Assembly (NCBI RefSeq): GCF_001267405.1 | Contig: NZ_CP012369.1 | Span: forward strand, 1,948,001-2,012,000 | DNA length: 64,000 nucleotides | Source of the DNA: Moorella thermoacetica | GTDB lineage: Bacteria > Bacillota > DSM-521 > Neomoorellales > Neomoorellaceae | Reading direction: 5' to 3' | Shown: one piece after another, positions 1,093-18,538 of the stretch | How the letters are laid out: each line of letters begins with the position of its first letter | Numbering within the stretch: position 1 is the first letter of the stretch | The notes under the pieces: model-generated | Databases searched by the model: none | Seen by the model: only the letters and a program-made list of their open reading frames with translations | What the model was told of the DNA's origin: nothing | Program-made: the position numbers and the translations under genes

Positions 1093-1100
1093 AGCAGGCT

Positions 1101-1910: not shown

Positions 1911-2001
1911 GCCCCCGCCCCCAATCTTGAGTAAACTTATCGGGTTGCATTGATTATATCAAGATCTAACGCCAAGGTCAAGAAAATATTTTTAACAATA
2001 T

Positions 2002-2017
2002 CCTGTCAATGGACAGG
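2002..2017. promoter_or_regulatory. Perfect inverted repeat in the thiF-like/cysK intergenic region
   Basis: CCTGTC-AATG-GACAGG is a perfect 6-bp palindrome with a 4-base centre. One of its half-sites recurs as TTGACAGG at 2181-2188, between the cysK promoter and its SD site. The AT-rich 1911-2229 interval between two sulfur operons is where an operator would be expected. The palindrome and the repeated half-site are seen; a role as an operator is inference, and no regulator can be named. Confidence 0.4.
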
Positions 2018-2126
2018 GAAAATTTTATATCAAATGTTTCTCTTCATATATTAACATTTTCCCCAGTCTATTTACACTCTGACCATATGACAATCAAGCT
2101 CCGATAAAATATTTTTTAGCCAGGTA

Positions 2127-2155
2127 TTGACCAGTGTATAGTAAATCGATAGAAT
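2127..2155 (+). promoter_or_regulatory. SigA-type promoter for cysK
   Basis: A -35 box TTGACC (2127-2132) and a -10 box TAGAAT (2150-2155) are separated by exactly 17 bases. They lie about 75 bases upstream of the cysK start in AT-rich DNA. The same -10 hexamer is used in the promoter ahead of the yezD-like gene at 9847-9875. Confidence 0.65.
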
Positions 2156-2229
2156 TACTTTAAAAACAATTTCAAGTAACTTGACAGGAATATTGTACTA
2201 TTGAGTTGCTTGTAAAGGAGAGGATACTG

Positions 2230-3156
2230 GTGGGTCGTATTTACCAGAACATCACCCAGCTTATCGGTGGTACCCCGATCGTCAAGCTCCACCGTATGAA
2301 TCCAAGCGAAGCAGAAGTTCTGGTCAAGCTGGAACTTTTTAACCCCGGCGGAAGTATCAAAGATCGTATCGCCTTAGCCATGATTGAAGACGCCGAAGAG
2401 CGGGGGCTCCTGGACAAAGACACCGTTATTATTGAACCGACCAGTGGCAATACCGGCATCGGCCTGGCCATGGTGGCCGCGGCACGGGGATACAAATTGA
2501 TCCTAACCATGCCGGAAACCATGAGCCAGGAACGGCGTCAGCTTCTCAAGGGCTTCGGTGCCGAGCTGGTCCTCACGCCGGGGGCCGAGGGGATGAAGGG
2601 GGCCATCCGCCGGGCCGAAGAGCTGGCTGCCACCTATCCCCGGGCCTTCATCCCCCAGCAGTTTGAAAATCCCGCCAACCCGGCCGCCCATCGCCATACT
2701 ACCGCTGCTGAGATCTATGACGCTACCGACGGGCAGCTGGATATCCTGGTCTGTGGTGTCAGTACCGGCGGGACCATCACCGGCACCGGCGAAGTTTTAA
2801 AAGAACGGATACCCGGACTGCAGGTAGTAGCTGTCGAACCGGCTTCATCCCCTGTCCTTTCCGGCGGTATGGCCGGACCCCATAAAATCCAGGGTATAGG
2901 CGCGGGGTTTGTTCCGGAAATTCTCAATATCGACGTTATCGACGAGATTATCCAGGTTACGGACGAGGAAGCCATTGATACTGCTCGACGGCTGGCCAGG
3001 GAAGAGGGTATTATGGTCGGCATATCTTCCGGGGCCGCCTGCTGGGCAGCCCTGCGCCTGGCCGCCCGCCCGGAAAACGCCGGCAAGCGTATCCTGGCAG
3101 TGCTACCCGACACCGGTGAACGCTACCTGTCTACCTCGCTTTTCCAGGAGATTTAA
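2230..3156 (+). CDS. cysK: Cysteine synthase A (O-acetylserine sulfhydrylase)
   Basis: 308 residues from GTG 2230, which sits 8 bases after AGGAGA; the upstream in-frame codons precede the SD site. It is a PLP enzyme of the CysK fold: Lys in G-G-S-I-K-D-R near residue 44 binds PLP, T-S-G-N-T-G near 71-76 binds the substrate carboxylate, [12 protein letters not shown] binds the PLP phosphate, and S-S-G-A-A near the C-terminus completes the active site. It makes cysteine from O-acetylserine and sulfide in the cytoplasm. Its divergence from a sulfite-reductase-like/TusA/E1 operon fits assimilation of the sulfide made there. cooS follows after 50 bases. Confidence 0.93.
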
Positions 3157-3206
3157 AGGTCAACATAAAAATATTAAAAGCTATTTATGGAGGAAGCCAA
3201 TCACTG

Positions 3207-5174
3207 ATGAAATACTCCTATCCCATACTGAACGCCGAAATGCCTGGACGTGAAGATGTGCTCCGATTAACTCCCAACCCGGCCAGTAAAGACCTCCTTG
3301 AGTACCTGCATCAAGAAGGCGTTGAAACCTGGTTGGATAGGTACGAAGCCCAGCAACCCATGTGTGGTTACGGCCTGCGGGGTCTCTGCTGCCGCATGTG
3401 CCAGTGGGGTCCCTGCCGCCTGGATAATAAGCGGCAGAGGGGAATTTGCGGCCGGGATCTGAGCACCGTCATCATGGCCAACCTGGTACGCTCCCTTGTG
3501 GCCGGCCTGGCCGCCCATGGCCGCCACGCCCATGAAGTAATCCTTACGATAATGGCGGCCGCCGAAGGGAAGGCTAACTTGCCTCTGAAGGGAGAGGAAC
3601 GGGTGCTGGATGTGGCCAACCGCCTCGGGCTTACAACCGACGGGCGAACGATAAAGGAAATAGCCCGGGAAGTGGCGGAGGTACTCCTGGAGGACCTGGG
3701 CCGTCTGACCATGACCCCCATCCGCATCTTGACGGCCTACGCGCCCCGGGAAAGGATAGAAACCTGGCAAACCCTCGGGGTGCTGCCCCGCTCCGGAGCC
3801 TATGAAATTATGGAAACCTTGCATATGACAACCCTGGGCGGAACCAGTGACTGGACTTCCCTGACAGAGCAAGAGCTCCGGGCGGCCCTGGCCTATTGCT
3901 ACAGTACTCTGTTCGGTAGTTCCCTGGCTACAGAGATGCTTTTCGGCATACCCCGGCCGAAGGTAGCCACGGTAAATTACGGCATCCTCAAGGAAGATCA
4001 CGTTAACATCCTTATCCACGGTCATTCCCCGGTCATGGTGGAAAAAATCCTGGAGAAAATCCGCACCCCCGAAATCCAGGAGTTGGCCAGAAAGGCAGGG
4101 GCCAAGGGTATAGTCGTCGGTGGCATGTGCTGTACCGGTGAAGAATTACTGGCCCGTTACGGTGTTCCTACGGTGACCAACATCATGGGCCAGGAGCTAG
4201 CCCTGGGAACCGGGGCCGTTGACACTGTAGTAGTAGATATGCAGTGCGTCATTCCCGGTATGAAGATAGTTGCCGATTGCTTTGGCACCCAGGTAATCAC
4301 CACCTGCAACTCCAACCGTATCCCCGGGGCCATCCACATTCCCTTCGACCCGGAAAATCCCGAAGGGCTGGACGAAGACGCCCTCAAGGTGGCGCGCCTG
4401 GCGGTAGAAGCCTTCGCCCACCGTGACCGCAGTAAAATGCATATTCCCCGGGAAACCACAGAAGCCATGGTCGGCTGGAGTTACGAGGCGATAGTTGACA
4501 CCTTCGGGGGCCTTAAAGGCCTGCTAGAGCTTTTACGGGAAGGAAAAATTAAAGGCATCGCTACGGTGGTGGGTTGCAATACGCCGAAGGTACCGTATGA
4601 ATTCAACCATGTTACCATCGTTCGGAGGCTTATCGAAAGCGACATCCTGGTTACCACTACCGGCTGCTGCTCCCACGCCCTCCTGAACGCCGGCCTGTGC
4701 TCACCCGCAGCAGCCAGCCAGGCCGGTCCCGGCCTCCAGGAGGTTTGCCGGTCCAGGGGCATCCCGCCGGTCCTGGCGGTGGGGGGCTGTGTGGACAATA
4801 CCAGAACCCTCCGGCTTTTTATCGACCTGGCCGAGGAGGCTGGCGTAGCCATGCCAAAAATGCCCTTTGTCTTTGTCGGGCCGGAACCCGGCAATGAAAA
4901 GACGGTGGGACAAGGGGTAACCTTTCTGGCCCACGGTATATCCAATGTCATCGGTTTCCCCGGTCCCATCCCCGTTCCCCTGCCCCGGCCCGTGGCAGGG
5001 GCTGCCCCCGACGAATACGACCGGGGTAGCAACCCGGTAGCTGACTTTTTTGCCGGCGACGGCTTATATGAAAAAGTAGGAGCACGGATCTATACCGAAC
5101 CCTATCCCAAGCTGGCGGCCCAGACCATCCGCATGCTAATCAGGCGCCAGAGGCTGGCGCTGGGGTGGAAGTAG
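3207..5174 (+). CDS. cooS: Anaerobic Ni-Fe-S carbon monoxide dehydrogenase, catalytic subunit
   Basis: 655 residues, usual CooS length. The N-terminal Cys cluster (C-G-Y-G-L-R-G-L-C-C, then C-Q-W-G-P-C and G-I-C-G, about residues 53-83) supplies the D and B [4Fe-4S] clusters. All expected C-cluster ligand segments are seen: H-G-H-S-P, G-M-C-C-T-G, D-M-Q-C, G-C-N-T, T-T-G-C-C-S and G-G-C-V-D-N. The enzyme interconverts CO and CO2 with ferredoxin-type carriers. No cooF ferredoxin, cooC insertase or acetyl-CoA synthase subunit is adjacent, so this is an orphan CODH rather than the acs operon. The ATG follows GGAGG by 13 bases, a rather long spacing. An importer operon follows directly. Confidence 0.95.
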   Translation: MKYSYPILNAEMPGREDVLRLTPNPASKDLLEYLHQEGVETWLDRYEAQQPMCGYGLRGLCCRMCQWGPCRLDNKRQRGICGRDLSTVIMANLVRSLVAGLAAHGRHAHEVILTIMAAAEGKANLPLKGEERVLDVANRLGLTTDGRTIKEIAREVAEVLLEDLGRLTMTPIRILTAYAPRERIETWQTLGVLPRSGAYEIMETLHMTTLGGTSDWTSLTEQELRAALAYCYSTLFGSSLATEMLFGIPRPKVATVNYGILKEDHVNILIHGHSPVMVEKILEKIRTPEIQELARKAGAKGIVVGGMCCTGEELLARYGVPTVTNIMGQELALGTGAVDTVVVDMQCVIPGMKIVADCFGTQVITTCNSNRIPGAIHIPFDPENPEGLDEDALKVARLAVEAFAHRDRSKMHIPRETTEAMVGWSYEAIVDTFGGLKGLLELLREGKIKGIATVVGCNTPKVPYEFNHVTIVRRLIESDILVTTTGCCSHALLNAGLCSPAAASQAGPGLQEVCRSRGIPPVLAVGGCVDNTRTLRLFIDLAEEAGVAMPKMPFVFVGPEPGNEKTVGQGVTFLAHGISNVIGFPGPIPVPLPRPVAGAAPDEYDRGSNPVADFFAGDGLYEKVGARIYTEPYPKLAAQTIRMLIRRQRLALGWK

Positions 5175-5249
5175 CCGCCCCTTCTTTTAGGCCGTCGAAA
5201 GCTCTGATCGAATTGTTCTTTTACAGCATCCAAAGGAGCGGAAAAGGTT

Positions 5250-6257
5250 ATGAAGGTGATGCCAAGAACTGTTACCCTGATTTTGGTCCTAACGCTGACC
5301 GCCGGCCTTCTGGCCGGCTGCGGTTCCCAAAAAACCGCAACTTCTGGCGAAAAACCCGTAATCAAAATAGGCTACCTGCCCATTACCCATTCCCTTCCAC
5401 TGGTAGTGGCCGATGCCCGGCATAAATCCGACTTTAACAACTTCCGGCTGGAGCTGGTTAAATTCGGCTCCTGGCCGGATCTTACTGAGGCCTTAAATTC
5501 CGGCCAGATCCAGGGAGCTATCACCATGCTGGAGCTGGCTCTGGCAAGTAAGGCCAAAGGTATTCCCGTTGAAGTAGTGTTGTTAAGCCACAAAAACGGT
5601 GATGTTCTGGTGGCCGCCCCTCCGATTAAAGATGTAAAAGATTTAAAAGGAAAAAGGGTGGCCATCCCCCACCGCCTGTCCGGTCATAATATTCTTTTAT
5701 ACAAGGCCCTGCAGCAGGCGGGCCTGGCTTACAGCGACGTCCAGGAGGTAGAAATGGCCCCGCCGGAAATGGCCGCCGCCCTGGCCAGGGGCGAAGTGGC
5801 GGCCTACGTGGTAGCCGAACCCTTCGGCGCCCAGGCAGTGGTAGCTGGCACGGGACGGGTACTAAAACGGGCCCAAGATATAATCCCAGGCTGGGAGTGC
5901 TGTGGCCTGGTTATAAACCAGCAGTTGGTCAGGGAAAATCCGGCCGCCGTCCAGGAACTGGTCGGCAGCCTGGTAGACACCGGTCATTATATAATGAGCG
6001 ATCGCAGGACGGCCATCGAAATGGCCCGGCCGTATATACCAGTGGCCAGGGAAACCTTGGAGCAGTCCCTGCAGTGGATCGATTATAGCGATCTCATGCC
6101 TACAACAGAGGGACTGGCCAGGATCGAACAGTACCTCAAAGAAATACCCTGGGATGGCCAGCCGGGACGCCTGTTACCTGGTGGAGAAATTAAACTGGAA
6201 GAACTGGTCGACGACCGCTTCGCCCGGCAGGCCATATTACCTACGCCGAAAAATTGA
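5250..6257 (+). CDS. NitT/TauT-type ABC transporter substrate-binding lipoprotein
   Basis: 335 residues. A signal peptide with lipobox L-L-A-G-C (Cys near residue 23) anchors it to the outer face of the membrane. The mature part starts I-K-I-G-Y-L-P-I-T-H-S-L-P, typical of SsuA/TauA/NrtA-like binding proteins, and keeps the segment V-A-Y-V-V-A-E-P-F-G near the middle. Such proteins deliver anions such as sulfonates, nitrate or bicarbonate, or pyrimidine-type compounds, to the permease. The substrate cannot be assigned here. SD AAGGAG lies upstream; permease and ATPase follow in the same direction, and cooS precedes it by 75 bases. Confidence 0.85.
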   Translation: MKVMPRTVTLILVLTLTAGLLAGCGSQKTATSGEKPVIKIGYLPITHSLPLVVADARHKSDFNNFRLELVKFGSWPDLTEALNSGQIQGAITMLELALASKAKGIPVEVVLLSHKNGDVLVAAPPIKDVKDLKGKRVAIPHRLSGHNILLYKALQQAGLAYSDVQEVEMAPPEMAAALARGEVAAYVVAEPFGAQAVVAGTGRVLKRAQDIIPGWECCGLVINQQLVRENPAAVQELVGSLVDTGHYIMSDRRTAIEMARPYIPVARETLEQSLQWIDYSDLMPTTEGLARIEQYLKEIPWDGQPGRLLPGGEIKLEELVDDRFARQAILPTPKN

Positions 6258-6309
6258 TCCAGATCTCTGTAGCAAACGCCCCTGCCCCTGATGAAAGGAG
6301 AATCGTCCC

Positions 6310-7095
6310 TTGCAGCGCGTAGAACGCTTTTTTCTCTCCCTGGCCGGGTTGGCCGGCGCCTTAACTCTCTGGCAGGTTTTTGCTTGGACCGGCCTGTATC
6401 CCCGCTACCTATTTCCCTGGCCCGGGGATGTTCTCCAGAGCCTCAGCCAGCAGCTTCACCAGGGAGTTCTGGGAGAGCATATTGCCGTCAGCCTCTTCCG
6501 CTTCTTCAGCGGCTACCTGGTAGCTGCCGTCGTAGCCATTCCCCTGGGGCTCTTGCTGGGCTGGTCGCGGCGGCTGTGGATCGCAGTCGACCCCCTGGTG
6601 CAGGTATTGCGACCTATTTCACCCATCGCCTGGCTGCCCCTGGTCACCTTGTGGTTCGGCATCGGGGACCTGCCGGCCATAGTCATCATCTTTATGGCCT
6701 CCTTCTACCCTATCCTGCTGGGTACGATCGCGGCCGTGAAAAATGTAGACCCGGTTTATATAAAGGTGGCAAAAAATTTCGGTGCCTCGGGTAGCCACAT
6801 TCTCTGGCGGGTAATCGTCCCCGCCGCTTTTCCCTACATTACCATGGGCCTCCACTTCGCTCTTGGTACTGCCTGGATCTTCCTGGTTGCCGGCGAGATG
6901 ATGGGGGTCAGGTCGGGCCTGGGCTTTCTCATTATCGACGCCCGCAACAGCATGGATACCGGGCTGGTGATAGCTGGGATGCTGGTCATCGGGCTCCTTG
7001 GTTTGGCCATTGACCGCCTGTTCGGCTGGCTGGAACGCCTGGCCTGCCGGCGCTGGGGCATAATGGAAGAGGAGGGATCACGTTGGCCGCGATAA
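6310..7095 (+). CDS. NitT/TauT-type ABC transporter permease
   Basis: 261 residues, starting at TTG 6310 nine bases after AAGGAG. About six hydrophobic segments are visible. The binding-protein-dependent transport signature loop is present (V-A-K-N-F-G-A-S-G-S-H-I-L-W-R, EAA motif), as is the family sequence P-I-S-P-I-A-W-L-P-L-V-T-L-W-F-G. This is the SsuC/TauC family. It forms the membrane channel for the binding protein at 5250-6257, and its 3' end overlaps the ATPase gene by 13 bases, indicating coupled translation. Confidence 0.88.
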   Translation: MQRVERFFLSLAGLAGALTLWQVFAWTGLYPRYLFPWPGDVLQSLSQQLHQGVLGEHIAVSLFRFFSGYLVAAVVAIPLGLLLGWSRRLWIAVDPLVQVLRPISPIAWLPLVTLWFGIGDLPAIVIIFMASFYPILLGTIAAVKNVDPVYIKVAKNFGASGSHILWRVIVPAAFPYITMGLHFALGTAWIFLVAGEMMGVRSGLGFLIIDARNSMDTGLVIAGMLVIGLLGLAIDRLFGWLERLACRRWGIMEEEGSRWPR

Positions 7096-7874
7096 AAATA
7101 GAAGCCAGGGGAGTAACCATGGCCTACACCGATAAGGCCGGCCGCAGCCTACCGGTGCTCCGGGAAGTCACCCTGGAGGTGCAGGAAGGTGAATTTGTCT
7201 GCCTCCTCGGGCCCAGCGGTTGCGGTAAGAGTACCCTCCTGAACATCCTGGCCGGATTCGAGATGCCGGATCAGGGGCAGGTATATATTGACGGCCGCCC
7301 GGTGACAGGGCCAGACCCCCGCTACCTCACCATCTTTCAAAATTATGGCCTCTTTCCCTGGCGCACGGTCCAGGGGAACGTAGAATACGGCCTGGAGCTA
7401 AAAGGGGTGCCTATCACCCGGCGGCGCTCCCTGGCCATGGAATATATCCGCCTGGTAGGGCTGCTGCCCTTCGCCCACCATCACCCGCGCCAGCTCTCCG
7501 GCGGCATGCAACAGAGGGTAGCCCTGGCCCGGGCGCTGGCCGTCGACCCGGAGGTCATCTTTATGGATGAGCCCTTCGGCGCCCTGGATGCTATTACCAG
7601 GATTAAAATGCAGGAAGAATTGCTGCGTATCTGGCAGCAGAAAAAGAAGACCATTGTCTTTGTCACCCACGACATCGATGAGGCAGTCTACCTGGCCGAC
7701 CGGGTAGTGCTTTTTACCTCCAACCCCGGCCGCATTAAAACCGTCATTCCCATCCCCATCAGCCGGCCGCGGGACCGAAGTTCGCCGGACTTTGCCGCCC
7801 TGCGGGATCAGATCTTCACCGCCTTTCAGATGAAACAGGAAGGCAAGCCGTGTGAGCCGGAATATTATATTTAA
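7083..7874 (+). CDS. NitT/TauT-type ABC transporter ATP-binding protein
   Basis: 263 residues from TTG 7083. Walker [10 protein letters not shown] is near residue 44, the signature L-S-G-G-M-Q-Q-R near 140, Walker B V-I-F-M-D-E-P near 160, and the switch His in F-V-T-H-D near 196. The P-W-R-T-V Q-loop segment is typical of SsuB/TauB/NrtD. It energises the importer encoded just upstream. A strong terminator ends the operon 20 bases downstream. Confidence 0.9.
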
Positions 7875-7894
7875 ATTTTTAAGGTTAAAGTCGC

Positions 7895-7929
7895 CCGGGG
7901 TCTGGTTTATCCGGACCCCGGACGCTTTT
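7895..7929 (+). terminator. Rho-independent terminator after the first ABC importer operon
   Basis: CCGGGGTC (7895-7902) pairs with GACCCCGG (7914-7921) across an 11-base loop, followed by ACGC and TTTT. It lies directly after the ATPase stop codon and closes the cysK-cooS-importer transcript. Confidence 0.7.
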
Positions 7930-8069
7930 ATTAAGCTGCTGATAATTACCGCTCTTTGCTTCTCTACCAGGTCGTGTAGCTTCCAGTAAGGTAAAGGCAT
8001 AAGTAACCTTGAGCTGTGAAGATATTATGAAGAAAACATGAAGAAAGTCTGAAAGATCGCATACCCATC

Positions 8070-8099
8070 TTGACACATACCCATATAGGGTAATATGCT
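8070..8099 (+). promoter_or_regulatory. Promoter with CsoR-type copper operator ahead of the small membrane protein
   Basis: TTGACA at 8070-8075 is followed by TACCC-ATATA-GGGTA (8078-8092), a perfect inverted repeat lying between the -35 box and possible -10 boxes (TAATAT 8091-8096 with 15-bp spacing, or TATGCT 8094-8099 with 18-bp spacing). TACCC...GGGTA palindromes at promoters are the usual binding sites of the copper repressor CsoR. A closely related repeat is found at the copA promoter (23073-23087). The repeat and promoter are seen; CsoR binding is inferred, and no csoR gene is in the window. Confidence 0.6.
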
Positions 8100-8144
8100 G
8101 GGACTAGACTTATGTCTAATTCACTTCCAAGAGGAGAGATGGGG

Positions 8145-8405
8145 ATGAATCACAGAAAGCACGGCTTGCTAATGCTCCTGGGTTGTGGCCTGATGATTGT
8201 GGCTGTATTTTTCTTACTGGCCCGCGGTGCAGCTGCAAATAATAGCACTGCAGGTGGTAGTTGGACCTGGCTGTTATTCTTACTATGTCCCCTGATGCAC
8301 CTTTTCATGATGGGCGGTCACAATCATGGTGAATGTCAGCATGGGGAGCACAAGGCTACCAGCAAAAATGATCAGTCCCAATCAGGAAAAACCCAGATAG
8401 AATAA
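8145..8405 (+). CDS. Small His/Cys-rich membrane protein, DUF2933-like
   Basis: 86 residues from ATG 8145, six bases after GGAGAG; ATG 8139 is also in frame but too close to the SD. Two hydrophobic segments (about residues 7-27 and 40-60) surround a short linker. The second ends in C-P-L-M-H-L-F-M-M, a motif I associate with DUF2933 proteins found near heavy-metal resistance genes. The tail carries H-N-H-G-E-C-Q-H-G-E-H, which looks suited to bind a soft metal. Together with the CsoR-like operator this suggests a role in copper stress. Function is not established; the family call is from memory of the motif. Confidence 0.65.
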   Translation: MNHRKHGLLMLLGCGLMIVAVFFLLARGAAANNSTAGGSWTWLLFLLCPLMHLFMMGGHNHGECQHGEHKATSKNDQSQSGKTQIE

Positions 8406-8427
8406 ACTAGAATAAAATAATGGAGAA

Positions 8428-8455
8428 GAGCGGCCATGTTAAAAGCCGCTCCTGT
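8428..8455 (+). terminator. Weak hairpin after the DUF2933-like gene
   Basis: GAGCGGC (8428-8434) pairs with GCCGCTC (8445-8451). Only a poor T run follows, so it may be a transcript-end stabiliser rather than a full terminator. Confidence 0.35.
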
Positions 8456-8531
8456 CAATATTAAGAGACAATTTGGCATGGACGTGGTATTTTGCGTTAT
8501 AGTAAATTGCTTCTATTTATGTTAATATTAG

Positions 8532-8760
8532 CTATAAGTACTGTAATCCCTGGCGGTAGCGATAAGCAAGCAGCGCATATATCATCACCCCGGCAAAAAG
8601 GACCATTCGGAAGCCGGCGGTAATGGCAACCATCATGGCGATAATCGACCCGATTACAGAAGACCAACCATTTATGCCCCAGGCTAACGGACTGCATATC
8701 TTTTTTCCAGCTGCTGCCTGGTAACCTGGTTTAAGGCCCGGGTAGTGCGCGTCATGGTTA
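8532..8760 (-). pseudogene. Remnant: C-terminal end of a membrane-bound spermidine-synthase-like protein
   Basis: On the minus strand a frame ending in TAG at 8532-8534 encodes P-L-A-W-G-I-N-G-W-S-S-V-I-G-S followed by a long hydrophobic stretch and Y-R-Y-R-Q-G-L. This resembles the C-terminus of fused membrane/spermidine-synthase-like proteins (W-G-x-N-G then S-V-x-G-S). There is no start codon, and upstream stops follow within about 45 codons. I read it as the 3' tail of a deleted gene. The identification is by motif memory and is tentative. Confidence 0.45.
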
Positions 8761-8767
8761 CCTCACA

Positions 8768-8957
8768 TTAATAATACCGATGGTCAGCACGGCTGCACGG
8801 TACAATGCGGCCGGCATCCGGCCCGGGCAGCGGGAAGCATATGCCCGTTTACCTCAACTTCGGCGGTAACGGGCACCAACAATCAATACCTTACCCGCCA
8901 ACGTTGCGCAAAATATTTACCGGCTGTAACGTTCTATTTCTTCGTTTGTTAGGCCAT
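8768..8957 (-). pseudogene. Decayed second copy of the thiF-like gene start
   Basis: Read from 8957 leftward, the DNA closely parallels the first bases of the intact gene at 1910: both encode M-A then N-E-E-I-E-R-Y-S-R, but here a one-base deletion creates a stop after M-A and a second stop replaces Gln after Y-S-R. Further on G-K-V-L-I-V-G-A is still readable, then a stretch ending in I-G-I-I that matches the next strand of the E1 fold. About 25 bases are deleted between these blocks. It is an inactivated, truncated paralog, and the best evidence that 8532-9728 is a decayed sulfur-related locus. Confidence 0.75.
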
Positions 8958-9728
8958 TCTTAGCCCTCCAATTTGTATTAAATATATCGGTTTTATGCCC
9001 GCCTGCCCAATACCGGCATTCAGGAGCTTGATACCTGGTGTACCCTTAAGGGCGACGCCAAGGAGGATGACCAGGACAAAGAGGCCGGCGTAACCCAGGA
9101 CGAACTTCGGGAGCCGCAGCCAGATCTCCCCGGCGTTTACCTGCTCCCCTTCCCGCCGGTCGATCTTCCAGGACCAGATTATGGCCAGGATGAAGGCCCA
9201 GATGGCGATGAAGATGTCGATAAAGACCTTGACGGTGGTGGTAGCCATGAGCATCCAGCCTTCCTGCCACTTGACTCCGAGGGCACTCAGGGCTTTGCTG
9301 CGAATGAGGGCATCCACCATGGCCCCGCTGGCCGCCGCCGCGCCGTCGGTCTTCACGGCCAGGCCCATCCAGGCCCCGGCGACCATCGGCTCTCTGTAGA
9401 GCCAGGCCTGGGCGGCAAAGGGCAGGATGATCAGCTCCACCACGGCGAAAATGACCACCAGGGACGAGACGATGACGGGGATCATCGGACGGGCCTTGAT
9501 GGCGCCGCCGGTAGCAATGGCTGCCGACACACCGCAGATAGAGATACCCGAGGCCAGGGGAACCGCCCACTCTGGGGTAAATTTAAAGTATTTCCGGGCA
9601 ATAAAGTAAACCAGGGGCCAGTAGATTAAGTAGGCCTCGATTATGGCGAAGAGGCCCCGGAGAACCACCTGGGTAGTGAGCCCCGTTGACTGCAACGCGT
9701 TCAGGCCAATTTGCGCGCCGAGAATGAT
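8949..9728 (-). pseudogene. YeiH/UPF0324-type putative sulfate exporter, truncated at both ends
   Basis: The open frame encodes a membrane protein of the UPF0324 (YeiH) family: A-V-P-L-A-S-G-I-S-I-C-G-V-S-A-A-I-A is the family core, followed by several hydrophobic segments. The frame begins after a TAA at 9729-9731 with I-I-L-G-A-Q-I-G, an internal segment, so roughly the first 100 residues are missing. The first usable start is TTG 9695, without a convincing SD. At the other end it runs into the start of the thiF remnant and stops on that copy's frameshifted TAA, so the normal C-terminal helices are also missing. Family assignment is fairly sure; loss of function is inferred from the double truncation. 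Confidence 0.6.
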
Positions 9729-9846
9729 TTATTATCAAGGGCATCTATCGCTTGAAAGGAATATTCTTCTTGCCGCCCCAAAGCAAGTATCCCGATGCCG
9801 GCTTGTAATACGACCATAACCTATCTGGTATTTTTTTAAAAAAAGC

Positions 9847-9875
9847 TTGACAGTGAATACCAGGAAAGTTAGAAT
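9847..9875 (+). promoter_or_regulatory. SigA-type promoter ahead of the yezD-like gene
   Basis: TTGACA (9847-9852), 17 bases, TAGAAT (9870-9875). It is about 115 bases upstream of the yezD-like start. The rest of 9729-9990 holds only a 38-codon minus-strand open frame without a convincing start. Confidence 0.65.
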
Positions 9876-9990
9876 CAAAGTATACTAAAGTGATTGGAAT
9901 ACTATATAATTAAGGCTGAGGATGAACGATATCTGCTGCCGTAAATCCCTGGGTAGTCCATAAAAGTTAGAATGGGGGGATGATTGCCAG

Positions 9991-10176
9991 ATGCCGGAAA
10001 GGCCCTTGACGGATTACCGGTGCCAGGCAGAGATTTCAACCCGGGAGCAGAGAGTTCTGGAGGAGGTACTTAAGGCTTTACGCCAGGTGAGATACGGATC
10101 CATCACTATTATTATTCAGGATGGCCGTATTGTTCAGATTGATTATACGGAGAAGGTCAGGCTGGGCAAGGAATGA
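9991..10176 (+). CDS. YezD-family small protein (DUF2292)
   Basis: 61 residues from ATG 9991, preceded by GGGGGGATGA. The sequence V-L-E-E-V-L-K-A-L-R-Q-V-R-Y-G-S-I then I-I-I-Q-D-G-R-I-V-Q-I ending E-K-V-R-L is the DUF2292/YezD pattern: one helix followed by a strand pair. The family often sits beside sulfur-assimilation genes in Firmicutes; its molecular role is unknown. It has its own promoter and is followed by a 290-base leader region ahead of the second ABC importer. Confidence 0.78.
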   Translation: MPERPLTDYRCQAEISTREQRVLEEVLKALRQVRYGSITIIIQDGRIVQIDYTEKVRLGKE

Positions 10177-10255
10177 ATTGGAAAGTAAGAGGTGATATTA
10201 GAAGTCCAGGTAAATAACGGTATTTCCGGCGCCGGCGATCAAAGAGCACCTGTAA

Positions 10256-10331
10256 TTGTTGGGTAGATACCGAGGCTGACCAGACAACTGGAGGCCCGTT
10301 TTCCTTATGGAATAGCGGGTCTCCATTTTTG
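10256..10331 (+). promoter_or_regulatory. Leader with attenuator-like terminator ahead of the second importer operon
   Basis: GGAGGCCCG (10290-10298) pairs fully (one G-U) with CGGGTCTCC (10316-10324), followed by ATTTTTG: a terminator about 140 bases before the ATPase start. Just upstream TTGTTGG (about 10256-10262) can pair with CCAGACAA (10280-10287), and CCAG-ACAA-CTGG forms a local hairpin that shares bases with the terminator arm, so alternative folds are possible. I could not match the leader to SAM, TPP, THF, T-box or guanidine consensus sequences. The terminator is seen; control by switching is inferred. Confidence 0.5.
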
Positions 10332-10468
10332 TTATGACACCGGTCGTCGGACCTGTGAAAATGTACCGGGTTGAAAGCGGTGGCAGCCCTTTTATCGGGA
10401 ACATAAAAAGGATCAGGACCTGCCATCATCCAGGCATGCATCTATCAAATGGGGGGAGATACCAACAG

Positions 10469-11245
10469 ATGGAGATTTTGCTGGATAATGTTACCAAAGC
10501 CTTTGCCTTGAACAATAATAACGGGGAGAGCTTCAAAGTCCTGGACCATATTTCTTTCGTGGTCAAAGAGAATGAGTTTGTCTGCCTCCTCGGACCTTCC
10601 GGGTGCGGCAAATCGACTTTGCTCAGAATGGTGGCCGGGCTGGAAAAGGTAGATTCAGGGGTGATCAGCGTGGACGGCCAGGAGGTCCAGGGACCTCATC
10701 CGGACCGGCCCATGGTCTTTCAGGACTACGCCCTCTTCCCCTGGCTAACGGTGGAAAAGAATATCGCTTTTGGTCTGGAAACAAAAGGCATCGATCCCCA
10801 AAAACAGCGGGAAGAAGTAGAGAGATGTCTCCAACTGGTAGGGTTAAAGGGCTTTGAAAAGGCATATCCCCACGAGCTATCGGGCGGGATGAAACAGAGG
10901 GTGGGTATCGCCCGGGTACTGGCATTAAAACCCAGAATACTGCTCATGGACGAACCCTTTGCCGCCCTGGACGCCTTTACCCGGATGAAGTTGCAGGATG
11001 AACTAATAACCCTCTGGCGGCAAAACAGGTTCACTGTCATTTTTGTCACCCATGATGTAGAGGAAGCAGTATACTTAGCCGACCGGATTGTAGTGATGAG
11101 CTGCCGGCCAGGTAAAGTAAAAAGTATTGTTCCTGTTCCCCTGCAAAGACCCAGGCGACGTACGGAATTCACATTTTTACAGATCCGCAACCTTGTTTTA
11201 AAGCAATATACAACATACGACCCGCCAGTGGAGTATGCCATCTAA
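10469..11245 (+). CDS. NitT/TauT-type ABC transporter ATP-binding protein (second system)
   Basis: 258 residues from ATG 10469, about ten bases after a GGGGGGAG site; the frame is open further upstream, but that part is leader. Walker [10 protein letters not shown] is near residue 46, signature L-S-G-G-M-K-Q-R near 142, Walker B I-L-L-M-D-E-P near 162, and F-V-T-H-D near 198. It has the P-W-L-T-V Q-loop of the SsuB/TauB group. The gene order is unusual: ATPase first, then an acyl-CoA-ligase-like enzyme, then binding protein and permease, all on one strand with tiny gaps. Confidence 0.9.
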   Translation: MEILLDNVTKAFALNNNNGESFKVLDHISFVVKENEFVCLLGPSGCGKSTLLRMVAGLEKVDSGVISVDGQEVQGPHPDRPMVFQDYALFPWLTVEKNIAFGLETKGIDPQKQREEVERCLQLVGLKGFEKAYPHELSGGMKQRVGIARVLALKPRILLMDEPFAALDAFTRMKLQDELITLWRQNRFTVIFVTHDVEEAVYLADRIVVMSCRPGKVKSIVPVPLQRPRRRTEFTFLQIRNLVLKQYTTYDPPVEYAI

Positions 11246-11266
11246 AATATGCAGGGGGTGATTATT

Positions 11267-12865
11267 ATGGAGTTCGCCTCGGTAAAAGAGCTGGTAATAA
11301 CCAGGGGCACCCAGTACCGCGGGAGGATATTTCTTTCCTCACCGGAAGATGGCGTGGATTTAACTTATGACGCCTACCTGCTGGCCGTCAGGAGACTGGA
11401 AAAAGCACTGCTGGCATTAGGTATGCGCAAGGGAGAAAGGGTGGCCCTTCTCATGGCGAACGGCCTGAATTACGCCGTCACCTTTACCGGGGTGATGGCC
11501 TCCGGAGGCGTAGTCGTACCCATCAACCCGCATTTAAAACCGGCAGAGGTGACCCGGCTCCTGGGAGATGCCGGGACCAGCCTGGTTTTAACTGACGACG
11601 GATGGTACAGAGTATTTTACCCCCTCCTGAAGGGGTTACCTGTTCGCCGCTTGGACCTGGGGGTGCAGGGCGGCAGGTTGCTGGCCCTGGAGCTGGCATC
11701 CGGGAGTAAGGGGGATGACAGAGCAGTTGAGGCGTCCCCTCTTGGCAGGAACGACTTAGCCCTCCTCCTGTACACCTCCGGTACTACCGGAAAGCCTAAA
11801 GGGGTGATGCTAACCCACGGTAATTTGCTGGCCGAGGCGAGGTATATCCAGAAAGGACACCGGTTAACGCCGGAAGATACTGCCCTGTGTATCCTGCCCC
11901 TGTATCATATAAATGGGGAAGTTGTGACCCTGATCACCCCCATCTTTTCCGGCGGGCGGGTAGTGATGCCCCATAAATTCAGGGCCAGCAGGTTCTGGGA
12001 CTGGGTCCGGAACTACCGGGTTACATGGTTCAGCGCCGTTCCCACCATCCTGTCCATCCTTCTTTCCCATCCTCTGCCGGATAGATCGGCCCTCTCTTCT
12101 TTGCGTTTTGCGCGCTCCGCCTCGGCACCTTTACCGGTAGCCGTCCTGCGGGAATTTGAAGCCCGGTTCGCCGTCCCTGTTATCGAGGCTTACGGCCTGT
12201 CGGAAACCGCCAGCCAGGTAACCACCAATCCCCTGCCCCCGGCGGTGAGAAAGCCGGGTTCCGTGGGGCTGCCTGTTGGCAATCAGGTACGGGTGGTGAA
12301 CGAAAATGGAGAGACCGTACCTGCCGGTGTCACCGGCGAAGTCGTAGTTCGCGGGGAAAATGTCTGCCGGGGTTACTTTCATAATGAAGAGGCTACTGCC
12401 GCTTCTTTCAAAGGAGGCTGGTTTTATACCGGCGACCTTGGCTACCTTGATGCCGATGGGTACCTGTTCCTTACCGGACGGCGCAAAGAACTTATCAACC
12501 GGGGTGGGGAGAAGTTTTCTCCCCGGGAGATCGACGAGATCTTATACCGTTTACCCGAAGTAGAATTAGCGGCAGCAGTAGGTGTCCCCGATCCCCTCTA
12601 CGGTGAAGAGGTGGTAGCCTTCATCCAACTGCGCCCGGGAAAAAGCCTGGCGGAAGATCGGGTAATATCCTTCTTAAGAGATTACCTGGCGGATTTTAAG
12701 GTCCCCCGGGAGGTCATCTTTATCCGGGATTTTCCCCGGGGGCCGAGCGGAAAGATTCAGCGCCTGAAGCTGGTGGACCTGTATCTTAAAAAATTCCAGG
12801 GAGCCGCCCATGGGGCTGGGGCTGGCACCCGCCCCATAAATGGTGAGGAGGTTGCTAAAAGATGA
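11267..12865 (+). CDS. AMP-forming acyl-CoA synthetase, oxalate-CoA ligase-like
   Basis: 532 residues from ATG 11267 behind GGGGGTG. The ANL-superfamily motifs are complete: Y-T-S-G-T-T-G-K-P-K-G (ATP loop), Y-G-L-S-E-T-A, Y-T-G-D-L-G, the hinge G-R-R-K-E-L-I-N-R-G-G-E, and the catalytic Lys in G-P-S-G-K-I-Q-R. The stretch after the A5 motif (N-P-L-P-P-x-x-R-K-P-G-S-V-G, then R-G-E-N-V-x-x-G-Y) resembles the oxalyl-CoA synthetase (Pcs60/AAE3) subgroup more than fatty-acid ligases, which suggests a small carboxylate such as oxalate. Substrate is inference. It lies inside the importer operon and overlaps the binding-protein gene by 4 bases (ATGA). Confidence 0.85.
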   Translation: MEFASVKELVITRGTQYRGRIFLSSPEDGVDLTYDAYLLAVRRLEKALLALGMRKGERVALLMANGLNYAVTFTGVMASGGVVVPINPHLKPAEVTRLLGDAGTSLVLTDDGWYRVFYPLLKGLPVRRLDLGVQGGRLLALELASGSKGDDRAVEASPLGRNDLALLLYTSGTTGKPKGVMLTHGNLLAEARYIQKGHRLTPEDTALCILPLYHINGEVVTLITPIFSGGRVVMPHKFRASRFWDWVRNYRVTWFSAVPTILSILLSHPLPDRSALSSLRFARSASAPLPVAVLREFEARFAVPVIEAYGLSETASQVTTNPLPPAVRKPGSVGLPVGNQVRVVNENGETVPAGVTGEVVVRGENVCRGYFHNEEATAASFKGGWFYTGDLGYLDADGYLFLTGRRKELINRGGEKFSPREIDEILYRLPEVELAAAVGVPDPLYGEEVVAFIQLRPGKSLAEDRVISFLRDYLADFKVPREVIFIRDFPRGPSGKIQRLKLVDLYLKKFQGAAHGAGAGTRPINGEEVAKR

Positions 12866-13869
12866 TTAAAAAGGCCATTGGTTTAACGTTAATAGCCTTA
12901 TTGATGGTAACCAGCCTGGCCGGGTGCGGTAACGGTAAGGGGGCGACAGCCAGCAGGGACGGAGAACCTGCGGCCATTAAAGTAGGAACCAACCGCGCCC
13001 TGGGGACTGTTGTCCCTTATATCGCCAGAACCCGGGGGATAATCGCCGCAAAAGGGCTAAAGGTTGATATCGTGGACTTCCAGGACGGATCCACACTGAT
13101 GGAGGCCTTCGCTTCCGGGCAACTGGATATCGCCTTTACCGGCGTCGCTCCCGCAGCTATCTGGCAGGGTAAGGGAGTACCTTTAAAGGTAGTTGCCTCG
13201 GCCAATGGCGGCGGGCATGTCCTGCTGACCAGAGAAGATGCCGGGATTAAAGACCTCTCGGAGTTAAAGGGAAAGAAAATAGCCGAGCCCAGGACGGGGA
13301 CGGTTAGCGACACCCTCCTCCGTAGCCGCATCTTACAAGATGAGGCCAAGCTGGACCCGGAGAAGAACGTCCAGCTCTTACCCGGCATGGCGCCGGCCGA
13401 TATGCCTGCGGCCCTGACTGTGTCCAAAGAGGTGGATGCGGTCCTTACCTGGGAACCCTTCGCTTCCCGGGCCGAAAGGGAGTTTAAAGGGATCAGGGTG
13501 CTCTACGATGCCGCGGCGGAATGGAAGAAGCAAAAGTCCGGCGCGGCCTATTATCCGGTCAACGTGGTCGTCGCCCGCCAGTCTTTTATTGACCGGCATC
13601 CGGATGAATTGAAGAAATTCCTGGCCGCTTACAAGGAAACCGTTGATTTTATAAACAACCGTCCAGATGAAGCCAACGCCTTGATTGCCAGGGAATTAAA
13701 TCTTGATAAGGAGATTGTGGCCAGCGCCCGCCAGAGAATCGATTATACCTGGCAGCTTGACATCCCGGCCACCCTGGAAACCTTAAAATGGTCGCAAAAA
13801 CTGGGTTATTTGCAGGAAATCCCTTCTCCTGGCAAGCTGTTTGACAGTAGTTATTTACCCAGGGAATAA
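12862..13869 (+). CDS. NitT/TauT-type ABC transporter substrate-binding lipoprotein (second system)
   Basis: 335 residues. The signal peptide ends in lipobox S-L-A-G-C near residue 22. The mature protein starts I-K-V-G-T-N-R-A-L-G and contains L-D-I-A-F-T-G-V-A-P, D-L-S-E-L-K-G-K-K-I-A-E-P and V-L-T-W-E-P-F, the layout of TauA/SsuA-type receptors. It should capture the substrate that the neighbouring CoA ligase uses. The start codon overlaps the ligase stop, so production of receptor and ligase is coupled. Substrate unknown. Confidence 0.87.
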   Translation: MIKKAIGLTLIALLMVTSLAGCGNGKGATASRDGEPAAIKVGTNRALGTVVPYIARTRGIIAAKGLKVDIVDFQDGSTLMEAFASGQLDIAFTGVAPAAIWQGKGVPLKVVASANGGGHVLLTREDAGIKDLSELKGKKIAEPRTGTVSDTLLRSRILQDEAKLDPEKNVQLLPGMAPADMPAALTVSKEVDAVLTWEPFASRAEREFKGIRVLYDAAAEWKKQKSGAAYYPVNVVVARQSFIDRHPDELKKFLAAYKETVDFINNRPDEANALIARELNLDKEIVASARQRIDYTWQLDIPATLETLKWSQKLGYLQEIPSPGKLFDSSYLPRE

Positions 13870-13890
13870 CGGGGTGAGGAGTAGAGGCCG

Positions 13891-14691
13891 ATGAAAATGC
13901 GCAAAGACGACTGGCAGCGCCTGTGGCAGGGCGTCCTGGCCTTGAGCGTATTTATCCTGATCTGGTATACGGCGTCTATTACAGGCTTGTTCGGCCGGGT
14001 TCCCAGGGATTATTCCCTGCTTCTCCTCCCACCGCCGGGAAAGATCCTGGTAACAATCTTTGAAACCCTGGTGTCCGGTTACTTACTAAAGCATGTTCTA
14101 ATCAGCCTGGCCAGGGTAGGCCTCGGCTTTACCATTGCGGTAGCAATAGGGGTACCCCTGGGCCTGGCCATGGCCCTGGTGCCGCTGGTAAACAACCTGG
14201 TTGAACCTTTTGTGCGGATCTTCGGACCCATCTCGGGCATAGCCTGGGTCCCCCTGGCCATCCTCTGGTTCGGCCTGGGTGATAAAGCGGCGATTTTCAT
14301 CATCACCATGGGCTCCGTCTTCCCCGTCTTAATCAATACCTACCAGGGGATGAAGGATGTCGATCAGACCCTCATCGAGGCTGCCCGTACCATGGGGGCC
14401 GGTCCATGGCAACTCCTTTCCCGCGTCATACTTCCCAGCCTTATACCCTACCTGGTAACCGGTTTCCGGGTCGGCCTGGGCTTTGCCTGGCGGGTGGTGA
14501 TCGCCGCCGAAATGGTCGGGGTACCCAACGGCCTGGGCTACATGCTGGGAGTAGGCAGGGGTACCGGCCGTACGGATATCACGATTATTACCATGGTCGT
14601 CCTGGGGGCAATCATGCTGGTAGTGGAAGAATTAATCTTTGCCCCCCTGGAAAGGCGCACCCGTTTCTGGCGCCGGTCCGTCCGGATTTGA
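13891..14691 (+). CDS. NitT/TauT-type ABC transporter permease (second system)
   Basis: 266 residues with about six membrane segments. The EAA loop appears as E-A-A-R-T-M-G-A-G-P-W-Q-L near residue 163, and G-P-I-S-G-I-A-W-V-P-L-A-I-L-W-F-G-L-G near 112-130 is the SsuC/TauC hallmark. It starts 21 bases after the binding-protein gene. It completes the importer whose ATPase is at 10469-11245. Confidence 0.9.
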   Translation: MKMRKDDWQRLWQGVLALSVFILIWYTASITGLFGRVPRDYSLLLLPPPGKILVTIFETLVSGYLLKHVLISLARVGLGFTIAVAIGVPLGLAMALVPLVNNLVEPFVRIFGPISGIAWVPLAILWFGLGDKAAIFIITMGSVFPVLINTYQGMKDVDQTLIEAARTMGAGPWQLLSRVILPSLIPYLVTGFRVGLGFAWRVVIAAEMVGVPNGLGYMLGVGRGTGRTDITIITMVVLGAIMLVVEELIFAPLERRTRFWRRSVRI

Positions 14692-14733
14692 GCTTAAGGC
14701 CGGCGTATATCACAGGTAAGGGAGGGATATGGC

Positions 14734-14952
14734 ATGGTCGAAGTCGATCCGCGGGCATGCAAAGAATGTGGCTACTGTACCGTCGTCTGCTCCCGGGATG
14801 TCTTTGCCCCTGCTGCTTATTTCAACGAACGGGGGTATAAACCCATGCAGGCCGTTTATCCGGAGAGATGTACAGGTTGCAGGCAATGCTTTTATATCTG
14901 TCCTGATTTTGCCATCAGTATCGATGAGCCGGATAAGGGGTTGGGAGTATGA
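14734..14952 (+). CDS. korD: 2-oxoacid:ferredoxin oxidoreductase delta subunit (2x[4Fe-4S] ferredoxin)
   Basis: 72 residues, SD GGGAGGG eight bases upstream. Two cluster motifs are visible: C-K-E-C-G-Y-C-T-V-V-C (the usual Pro after the fourth Cys is Ser here) and C-T-G-C-R-Q-C-F-Y-I-C-P. It overlaps the alpha-subunit gene by 4 bases. In KorDABC-type enzymes this subunit carries electrons from the thiamine site to an external ferredoxin. Confidence 0.88.
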   Translation: MVEVDPRACKECGYCTVVCSRDVFAPAAYFNERGYKPMQAVYPERCTGCRQCFYICPDFAISIDEPDKGLGV

Positions 14953-16121
14953 AACGTTTGCTGGAAACCGGGAACGGGGCCATAACCGAAGGAGCCATCA
15001 TTGCCGGGTGCCGGGTCTTTGCCGGATATCCCATTACCCCGGCTACAGAGATAGCTGAAAATATGGCCCGGCGGTTACCCCGGGCAGGCGGTTTTTACCT
15101 CCAGGCCGAAGACGAACTGGCGGCGTTGTATATCTGTATCGGGGCTTCCGCCGGGGGGATGAAGGCCATGACGGCCACTTCCGGGCCGGGTTACATCCTC
15201 TATGCCGACCCTTTCGGCTGGGCTATATCCAGCGAGATTCCCCTGGTTATAGTTAATTCCCAGCGGGTGGGGCCGGTAAGCGGCATTACTGGTGCTCCCG
15301 GTCAGGGTGAATTTTATCTGAGCCGTTATCTGACCCACGGGGGCAATTTTGAAAACATCGTCCTGGCTCCGGCCGGCGTCCAGGAAGCCTTCGCCATTAC
15401 TGTCCAGGCCTTTTATCTGGCGGAAAGGTTTCGCATGCCCGTGACCATCCTGGCGGACCAGCTGGTTACCGACGGCTGGGAGACCCTGCTGATTCCCGAG
15501 ACAGGGGCGGAGCTGGAAGCCATGGGACTGAAGGTGATAGAACGCCGGGTAAACAGGGGGCCGGAGTTCTACCCGGCCACAGATGCCATTGATGTTCCCC
15601 CGGTAGTCCTGGGTCATAATACCGGCGCTGCCTGTTCCGACTGGACGCCTACCGCCGAGGGTTACGATACAGAAGAGGTGGAGTGGCAGCACAAGCATGC
15701 CTATCGCCTGATTTATAAAGTTAGAAACCATAAAGATTTGCTTACCAGGTATGAGGCGTACTTTGTCGATGACGAACCGGAGGTCATCCTGGTGGCCTAC
15801 GGCAGTCCTTCACGGGTGGTAAAAAGCGCCGTGAAAGTTGCCCGGGAGCAAGGTCTCAAAGTTGGCGGCCTTCGCCTCGTCACCCTGTGGCCTTTCCCTG
15901 AGGAGATCTTCAGCTGGCAAGCTAAATACCTGGTGGTGGAAATGAATTACGACGGGCAACTGGTGCGTGAGGTGCAGCGGGCGACACCAAAGGGGTCGGC
16001 AATTCACTTCCTGGGCAAGTGCGGTGAATTGCCGCGGGTCGCGGAACTGGTAGAACTGATCCGGGCCCTGGTCAACGACCGGCCCCTTCCCTGTAACCCC
16101 AGGGAAAGGGAGGTGTGGTAG
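14949..16121 (+). CDS. korA: 2-oxoacid:ferredoxin oxidoreductase, alpha subunit (KorA-like)
   Basis: 390 residues. G-N-G-A-I-T-E-G-A, then A-G-Y-P-I-T-P-A-T-E-I near residues 26-36, and A-M-T-A-T-S-G-P-G near 75 are the domain I motifs of KorA. The segment that normally reads G-P-S-T-G-x-P-T is changed to G-P-V-S-G-I-T-G-A-P-G-Q-G-E-F, which may mean a different acid substrate. With beta, gamma and delta it forms a CoA-dependent oxidative decarboxylase, or the reverse carboxylase. The specific substrate (2-oxoglutarate, another 2-oxoacid, or an oxalyl compound) cannot be read from sequence. Confidence 0.88.
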   Translation: MKRLLETGNGAITEGAIIAGCRVFAGYPITPATEIAENMARRLPRAGGFYLQAEDELAALYICIGASAGGMKAMTATSGPGYILYADPFGWAISSEIPLVIVNSQRVGPVSGITGAPGQGEFYLSRYLTHGGNFENIVLAPAGVQEAFAITVQAFYLAERFRMPVTILADQLVTDGWETLLIPETGAELEAMGLKVIERRVNRGPEFYPATDAIDVPPVVLGHNTGAACSDWTPTAEGYDTEEVEWQHKHAYRLIYKVRNHKDLLTRYEAYFVDDEPEVILVAYGSPSRVVKSAVKVAREQGLKVGGLRLVTLWPFPEEIFSWQAKYLVVEMNYDGQLVREVQRATPKGSAIHFLGKCGELPRVAELVELIRALVNDRPLPCNPREREVW

Positions 16122-16122
16122 G

Positions 16123-16968
16123 ATGGATTATCTGGCCAGGAAATACCTGCGCCCCAGGAAAATTCCCAGCACGGCCTGCAGCGGTTGCGGTCTGGGCCAG
16201 GTGCACAAAAAGGTGCTGCTGGCCATTGACGAGCTGGGGTTGGGGACGGGAGACATTGTCTGGGGTACTGGGATAGGCTGTGCCGGACGCCAGACCTTTA
16301 ACACCTGGAAGGGTGACAATTTTGCCGGGACCCATGGCCGGGTTTATGCCCTGGCTACCGGGTTGCGCCTCGCCCTGCCCCCGGAGAAAAAGATCATCCT
16401 CACCGTCGGCGACGGCGATGCCTTTGGCATCGGCCTGCTGCACCTTTTGAATTGTGCCCGGCGCAATGTAGGCCTGACTGTCATCGTCTGTGATAATCTG
16501 GGCTACCAGTCTACCGGCGGCCAGTACGGGTGGACCACGCCGGCTGGTTACTGTACCGATAGCAGCCCTTTAGGCATGTGGGAACCCAACTGGGTCCAGG
16601 GCGGCAGGGATATCCTGGCGGTACTAAAGGCGGCGGGGGCTACCTTTTTAGCCCGGCACACCAGCTTCGAGGGCCGGAACGCCGTCTTGAGTATCAAAAA
16701 GGCGCTTCTCAATAACGGCTTTTCCCTGGTCCATGTTTATTTCCCCTGTGTGACCAACTTTGGTGCCAGGGCCCTGGGGACGCGCCGGCCAGCAGCCATA
16801 TACCAGTGGTTTAGGGAGCGTACCGCTGCCATGGATCAGGCAGGACCGGAGGTTGACTTTCCCCTGCGGACTGGTATTTACTATGACGCCAGCAACAGCC
16901 GTCCGGAATTCTGTGAGAACTTGCGGGCATGGGTGGCTGAAGTCCAGGAGCAGGGGGGGAACCGGTGA
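16123..16968 (+). CDS. korB: 2-oxoacid:ferredoxin oxidoreductase, beta subunit (thiamine-PP binding)
   Basis: 281 residues, start one base after the korA stop. It begins with C-S-G-C-G (cluster ligands, residues 17-21), then G-T-G-I-G-C-A-G, T-H-G-R-V-Y-A-L-A-T-G-L-R and the TPP/Mg2+ motif G-D-G-D-A-F-G-I-G ending in D-N-L-G-Y-Q-S-T-G-G-Q. These are the KorB hallmarks. It forms the thiamine site together with KorA. Confidence 0.92.
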   Translation: MDYLARKYLRPRKIPSTACSGCGLGQVHKKVLLAIDELGLGTGDIVWGTGIGCAGRQTFNTWKGDNFAGTHGRVYALATGLRLALPPEKKIILTVGDGDAFGIGLLHLLNCARRNVGLTVIVCDNLGYQSTGGQYGWTTPAGYCTDSSPLGMWEPNWVQGGRDILAVLKAAGATFLARHTSFEGRNAVLSIKKALLNNGFSLVHVYFPCVTNFGARALGTRRPAAIYQWFRERTAAMDQAGPEVDFPLRTGIYYDASNSRPEFCENLRAWVAEVQEQGGNR

Positions 16969-17891: not shown

Positions 17892-17898
17892 CAGCCTG

Positions 17899-18312: not shown

Positions 18313-18349
18313 CCCGGAAATCGGGAAAAGTTTCTCTAAGCTTCTCCCC

Positions 18350-18377
18350 TTGACGCTTTAGATATAGAGGATATAAT
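18350..18377 (+). promoter_or_regulatory. Promoter for the SAM-riboswitch transcript
   Basis: TTGACG (18350-18355), 16 bases, TATAAT (18372-18377). It lies about 45 bases ahead of the riboswitch, showing that the two trans-sulfuration genes keep an independent promoter despite the metI deletion upstream. Confidence 0.65.
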
Positions 18378-18535: not shown

Positions 18536-18538
18536 GAA

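Follow-up and report, generated by a model that had tools for sequence, protein, structure and literature searches.

Remnants of a second ThiF/ThiS/sulfite-reductase gene cluster, probably imported, in Moorella thermoacetica

Introduction

A short stretch of the chromosome of Moorella thermoacetica, a thermophilic acetogen, consists of broken sulfur-related genes lying end to end, which raises the question of where these genes came from and why they decayed. The stretch lies within a window of 64,000 nucleotides (the whole DNA analysed, to which unlabelled coordinates refer). The first-pass annotation of this DNA described a graveyard of three remnants, one of them a decayed thiF that was taken for a duplicate of the intact thiF gene at 1910. 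A genome study of M. thermoacetica DSM 521T counted 10 genomic islands, and its main text, as far as available, never uses the word "pseudogene" (PMC6978639). Literature on Moorella pseudogenes, on deletion bias and microhomology, and on ThiS/ThiF/TusA/sulfite reductase yielded, at the level of titles, none on this locus. The comparison set comprised one genome per species, designated by G numbers (G000 being the genome under study), with individual loci designated by L numbers.

Layout of the remnant block

A BLAST search with window 7800-10500 as the query and 11 fetched neighbourhoods as targets resolved 7941-9725 into nine collinear fragments from six genes, plus one intact gene encoding a DUF2933 protein. 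The fragments were traced to an HgdB-like gene, a SpeE-like gene, an M20 amidohydrolase gene (three pieces), thiS, thiF (two pieces), and yeiH; the pieces and their order were read directly from the alignments. A DNA search of 11 genomes of the genus, including the one under study, gave matches in 10 and none in G007, which is 58% complete. The existence of a graveyard drawn largely from a sulfur-assimilation cluster was thus borne out, and the genes found in the sister genomes were intact and related, not unrelated. The SpeE-like, thiF, and YeiH pieces that had been reported are real, but a count of three was too low, the left limit lies near 7941, and the M20, ThiS, and HgdB-like pieces had been overlooked together with the intact DUF2933 gene. 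No remnant of the MscS, tusA, or sulfite reductase genes of the relatives' cluster was found in the graveyard.

The leftmost fragment (7941-8004, minus strand, 64 bases) is 87.5% identical to L043 4244-4307, within a 431-aa gene of the double-cubane reductase family. A 31-base, 90% match to this piece also occurs elsewhere in the own genome (C1:1357020-1357050), and its origin from an HgdB-like gene is tentative, the least secure of the fragment assignments. At 8543-8690, on the minus strand, lies the 3′ end of a gene for a SpeE-like membrane protein (approximately residues 688-742 of 745), which is 96.6% identical to L043 7118-7265 in G006, confirming the spermidine-synthase-like tail that had been noticed earlier. 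Among 14 genomes searched, the intact SpeE-like gene was present in G006 and G009 only. The three M20 pieces follow on the same strand: 8694-8766 is 95.9% identical to both G006 and G009, 8766-8815 is 83.6% identical to G009 and 80.0% to G006 with two gaps, and 8814-8845 matches both at 31/32 bases. A 31-base ThiS fragment (8843-8873, minus strand) matches G016 at 29 positions, G006 at 26, G009 at 25, and the native ThiS gene at 21. The two thiF pieces (8872-8896 and 8895-8994) and the yeiH piece (8996-9725) complete the series; M20, thiS, the SpeE-like gene, and yeiH are all truncated, and the thiF frame is broken by frameshifts and a TAA. The stretch 9726-9819, which separates the yeiH break from the point (9820) where G010 becomes collinear again, is unassigned; in the fetched loci its only matches were to the own genome and to a 16-mer attributable to chance.

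The GC content is 44-48% across 8001-9000, compared with 54-62% across 6001-8000. A search of 7000-19000 against Rfam at gathering thresholds returned a SAM riboswitch at 18425-18533 alone, so the graveyard is not explained by a known RNA element. A promoter scan of 7800-10000 gave 5 sites with 2.9 expected (sd 1.9), which by itself proves nothing. An element of about 40 bases with repeated ATGAAGAAA was observed at window 8014-8053, L043:9511-9550, L042:6687-6726, and L048:3652-3692. In several Moorella genomes it precedes genes or lies in the gaps separating them, and it is perhaps a regulator site.

The single intact unit of the block (8013-8450, plus strand, 92.3% identical to G006) consists of a promoter-like site, the DUF2933 gene, and a downstream hairpin. 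The open reading frame (8112-8405) scores 42.4 bits against PF11666 (cut-off 21). Translation probably begins at the ATG at 8145, since in G008 the two candidate ATGs are separated by a TAA. The promoter region is conserved in 5 aligned sequences, and contains ATACCCATATAGGGTAAT, an imperfect inverted repeat. The dN/dS was 0.26 to G006 and 0.42 to G009, with 0.24 between G006 and G009; judged from these sequence comparisons, the separately promoted DUF2933 gene looks to be under constraint, as the sole intact gene of the block. It is absent from G010 and G005. The C-terminal stretch of the protein (window 8145-8405) is rich in His, Cys, and Met; from this motif we presume, as a guess, that the protein is perhaps metal-related.

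The intact clusters and the native gene set

The intact cluster of G006 (L043) comprises, in order, HgdB-like, MscS, DUF2933 (on the opposite strand), SpeE-like, M20, thiS, tusA, sulfite reductase, and thiF. In G016 (L051) yeiH adjoins thiF as it does in the window, and the pair leads into sulfite reductase, tusA, thiS, and M20; the thiF copy beside yeiH in that genome itself carries a 1-nt deletion. The run of thiF, sulfite reductase, tusA, and thiS, followed directly by M20, was found at L043:9666-13038, L051:6715-10158, and L042:6818-10246 (the last in G009). In two further loci the sulfite reductase beside thiF looks truncated, with matches to residues 18-70 (L044, G002) and 3-152 (L047, G003) of 310. 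At L042:13148-14839 in G009, cysK and a CO-dehydrogenase-like gene appear joined in one 563-aa frame, with the frame of a truncated ABC ATPase after it; this marks a further deletion nearby.

The genome under study also holds intact native copies of thiF, sulfite reductase, tusA, thiS, and M20. Native thiF lies at 1101-1910 (minus strand, PF00899) and groups with G010 and G005; the small sulfite reductase gene lies at 193-1125 (minus strand, PF01077 and PF03460), tusA was read after it in translation at window 1-245, and thiS follows tusA at L052 17762-17962 (PF02597). The native M20 gene lies outside the window, about 10 kb to its left, and clusters with G010. For the SpeE-like gene, yeiH, and metQ, searches of this genome yielded no substitute of the same kind.

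The arrangement resembles the class 4e operons of Iyer et al. (2006), in which ThiS, E1, SirA (TusA), and sulfite reductase are linked to the assimilation of sulfur from sulfate or sulfite (PMC1779556). As far as that source was available, its class 4e list includes a JAB peptidase and does not include Moorella (PMC1779556). Both the relatives' clusters and the native set share with this class the combination of ThiS, a ThiF/E1 protein without a rhodanese match, TusA, and sulfite reductase; they differ in that no JAB peptidase scored above the cut-off, and in that M20 directly follows thiS in G006, G009, and G016. For the JAB peptidase family PF14464, 0/10 genomes gave a match above the cut-off and 2 weak matches were seen, while 7/14 controls scored above it. 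The absent JAB peptidase is a testable lead, and it is a guess that M20 stands in for the JAB peptidase of similar operons.

Pathways that use a carrier-bound thiocarboxylate, such as the HcyS pathway of Wolinella, offer an analogy for the function of the cluster. By this analogy, sulfide formed by the sulfite reductase of the intact cluster would be loaded onto ThiS and used to make cysteine or homocysteine. In the strain studied here, that role can presumably be filled by the native thiF, sulfite reductase, tusA, and thiS, and would be beyond the fossil copy.

The thiF and yeiH remnants

The larger thiF fragment (8895-8994, minus strand) contains the leader, the start codon at 8957, and the first codons, and is 89.2% identical to G009 and G016 and 85.3% to G006. 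The smaller, internal fragment (8872-8896, minus strand) matches L042 10112-10136 of G009 at 25/25 bases. The frameshift and in-frame stop that had been described are present: the remnant carries a 1-nt deletion right after the start codon, a second 1-nt deletion, a 26-nt deletion, and an in-frame TAA at a site that is CAG or CAA in relatives. Aligned to the window's intact thiF, the remnant gave 44 columns with 37 identities (84%), 6 mismatches, and 1 gap, and a local score of 51, compared with a mean of 18.9 and a maximum of 28 in 500 dinucleotide shuffles. The resemblance claimed between the two thiF sequences is therefore far beyond chance, although the wording "almost base for base" was too strong for 37/44. 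The interval 8768-8957, proposed as alignable to thiF, contains, apart from the start of the gene, mostly other sequence (thiS at 8843-8873 and M20 at 8694-8845) along with the second thiF piece.

The yeiH remnant (8996-9725, minus strand, PF03601) corresponds to the middle of the gene, residues 181-424 of 488, and is 96.4% identical over 730 bases to G016, the next relative being G005 at 85%. The own genome has only a 38% paralogue. The open reading frame (8949-9695, 248 aa) continues into the thiF leader and ends on a TAA created by the 1-nt deletion after the thiF start codon, in agreement with the earlier description of a YeiH frame cut at both ends that stops on the TAA of the thiF copy. 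It scores 64 bits against PF03601 (cut-off 24.5), and it falls short of full length: against the 488-aa relative, 180 N-terminal and 64 C-terminal residues are missing. Both the remnant and the intact G016 relative lie above the Pfam cut-off of the YeiH putative exporter family (PF03601, TIGR00698), whereas the G016 protein reaches only 30.6 of the 232.6 bits required by TIGR00698; on these profile scores, it is a distant subfamily of the putative exporters.

The possibility that this 248-aa frame or the region as a whole is functional, for example as a shortened exporter, was considered and is very improbable. The frame is open, and the differences from G016 fall at codon positions one to three in the numbers 5, 2, and 19 (19 synonymous, 7 nonsynonymous, dN/dS approximately 0.12). 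This pattern indicates that most of the divergence accumulated under constraint before truncation, so that the constraint can be older than the loss of the two ends. In addition, the promoter scan gave no promoter-like site on the same strand across 9725-10000. For the SpeE-like tail, comparison with G006 gave 5 nonsynonymous and 0 synonymous differences, which fits an absence of constraint over few sites.

Affinities of the remnants

In the rpoB tree (12/14 genomes, with the partial matches of G004 and G007 left out), G000 groups with G010 and then G005, apart from G002, G006, G009, G008, G003, and G001, and G016 falls outside the genus. Native thiF follows this grouping. The thiF remnant, by contrast with its native counterpart, groups with G009, G006, G002, and the second copy of G016 (support 99/100), and the M20 remnant groups with G009, G006, G002, and G016 (support 100/100). 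Of the 15 genomes considered for the thiF tree, G004 (partial), G018, and G007 (which lacked a match) were omitted, as was a second copy in G014, at 59%; the M20 tree holds nine copies, and G004, G005, G007, G014, and G017 are outside its coverage. Approximately unbiased (AU) tests rejected a grouping of the thiF remnant with native G000, G010, and G005 (p = 3.05e-5) and of the M20 remnant with native G000 and G010 (p = 0.00584); the tested groups were fixed after the trees had been seen, though they equal the hypothesis of the first-pass annotation.

Over the 123 sites compared, a short alignment, the thiF remnant matches G009 at 114, the second copy of G016 at 112, G006 at 106, and G008, G001, and G003 at 102, while G002 and G010 match at 90 and the native gene at 88. 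The low value for G002 is at odds with its place in the tree, and may reflect recombination at the 5′ end of its gene. Over 151 sites, likewise short, the M20 remnant matches G009 at 140, G006 and G002 at 136, G016 at 130, and the native copy and G010 at 106. In rpoB, G000 shares 79.3% identity with G009 and 80.5% with G006, so the remnants resemble these two genomes more than vertical inheritance would permit. The pieces do not all point to one donor: yeiH is closest to G016, and the SpeE-like and DUF2933 genes are closest to G006 and G009. Among the intact copies, M20 is 98.6% identical between G006 and G002 (rpoB 81.5%) and 93.2% between G006 and G016 (rpoB 77.3%). Identities so far above those of rpoB suggest, at the level of sequence, that the ThiF/ThiS/sulfite-reductase/TusA/M20 cluster moves between Moorella species and the neighbouring genus.

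Deletion junctions and a second scar

The seven inter-block junctions share 1, 2, 2, 2, 2, 0, and 0 bases, and the last two carry 3 and 1 extra bases. The 9 shared bases in total give P = 0.075 under a uniform-base null, a score that leaves out the outer block edges and the 17900/17901 junction described below. Microhomology was rejected as a proven mechanism, since this value is not clearly above chance and is at most suggestive.

G010 is collinear with the window across 16-7939 (90.8 and 93.5%), stops at 7939, and is collinear again at 9820 (76.5%) and at 16521 (91.5%). In the first gap G010 has 27 kb, including an ATP-sulfurylase gene near the gap edge. The stretch C3:13635-40556 (L048, L165, L049) of G010, the closest species, carries ATP-sulfurylase and further cysK-like stretches, so that different sulfur sets occupy one site.

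A second scar lies at 17487-18312, where a truncated B3/4-domain gene (minus strand) is joined at 17900/17901 to a start-less metI (plus strand), as identified by B3/4 and BPD_transp_1 matches. Here 2.9 kb kept in G010 is missing (metQ, metN, the metI start, and part of the B3/4 gene); G010 has metI, metN, and metQ intact at this site. The own genome gave no match to metQ, which among 11 genomes was found in G010, G006, and G016 and, as a weak match, in G003. Beyond the second scar come the SAM riboswitch (18425-18533) and the intact genes metB and metC. The metB/metC part (approximately 18286-20931) is 87.7% identical to G009, 88.6% to G006, 90.0% to G008, and 91.9% to G010, whereas other compared stretches are 75-80% identical to G006 and G009 and 79-86% to G008. 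The value for G010 indicates that the metB/metC part is older than the divergence of the two species, and because G010 shares this foreign-looking part, some of the arrival may predate the species itself.

Origin and decay of the block

The reading that the graveyard is a horizontally acquired second ThiF/ThiS/sulfite-reductase cluster, redundant with the native genes and eroded by several deletions, is considered very probable. The incoming cluster would have comprised thiF, sulfite reductase, tusA, thiS, M20, SpeE-like, DUF2933, MscS, and HgdB-like genes, with yeiH beside thiF as in G016. The donor may have been related to the G006/G009 branch of Moorella, or both may have drawn on a shared source, the direction and route of transfer being inferred. 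Selection on the imported copy was presumably weak, because thiF, sulfite reductase, tusA, thiS, and M20 were already present. Approximately 88% of the stretch from the HgdB-like gene to thiF, which spans 8.8 kb in G006 and 1.05 kb here, has been lost by deletion; yeiH has been cut at both ends, and small indels and substitutions have broken the remainder, in events whose number and order are reconstructed. Redundancy as the cause of decay is likewise our inference, and it does not explain the loss of the SpeE-like gene, yeiH, and metQ, for which no such replacement was found.

That the thiF remnant arose by duplication of the window's own thiF, as originally proposed, is highly unlikely. The homology between the two is clear, with 37/44 identical columns and a score that no shuffle approached, but the remnant matches its native counterpart at far fewer sites than it matches G009, the AU tests reject the native grouping, and the adjoining fragments come from a different, collinear cluster. 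An older paralogy, in which both copies were present in the Moorella ancestor and were lost differentially by lineage, is also unlikely, if less so. Nearly all genomes carry a single thiF copy, transfer can be mimicked by differential loss, and the absence of one donor for all pieces would fit such a history; against it, the path from the remnant to G009 in the thiF tree is 0.054, while the rpoB genes of these two genomes differ at 20.7% of sites, and old paralogues would be expected to be at least as far apart. Misassembly could in principle produce short blocks set end to end, and yet an assembly or sequencing artefact is extremely improbable: no evidence for one was found, the genome is finished, with 382-fold Illumina coverage and Sanger gap closure (PMC4599090), and substitutions separate the remnants from the sequences of the other genomes searched. 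A combined reading is also very unlikely, namely that the Moorella family has a roaming sulfur cassette whose ThiS-dependent sulfite route employs M20 instead of the JAB peptidase, and that the copy imported here was shredded in one multi-jump event sparing only DUF2933.

Implications

Import followed by decay, instead of self-duplication, is the corrected reading of this locus. The block resembles the decay of other redundant, horizontally acquired bacterial genes in its foreign affinity, broken frames, many deletions, and native redundancy; it differs in its unusual legibility, with many edges placed to within a few bases, and in the one gene that is intact. The deletion edges can be read so closely because relatives retain the cluster. 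The graveyard is real and legible, and in kind it is ordinary gene decay, a small, clean case of the erasing of redundant imports in a thermophile.
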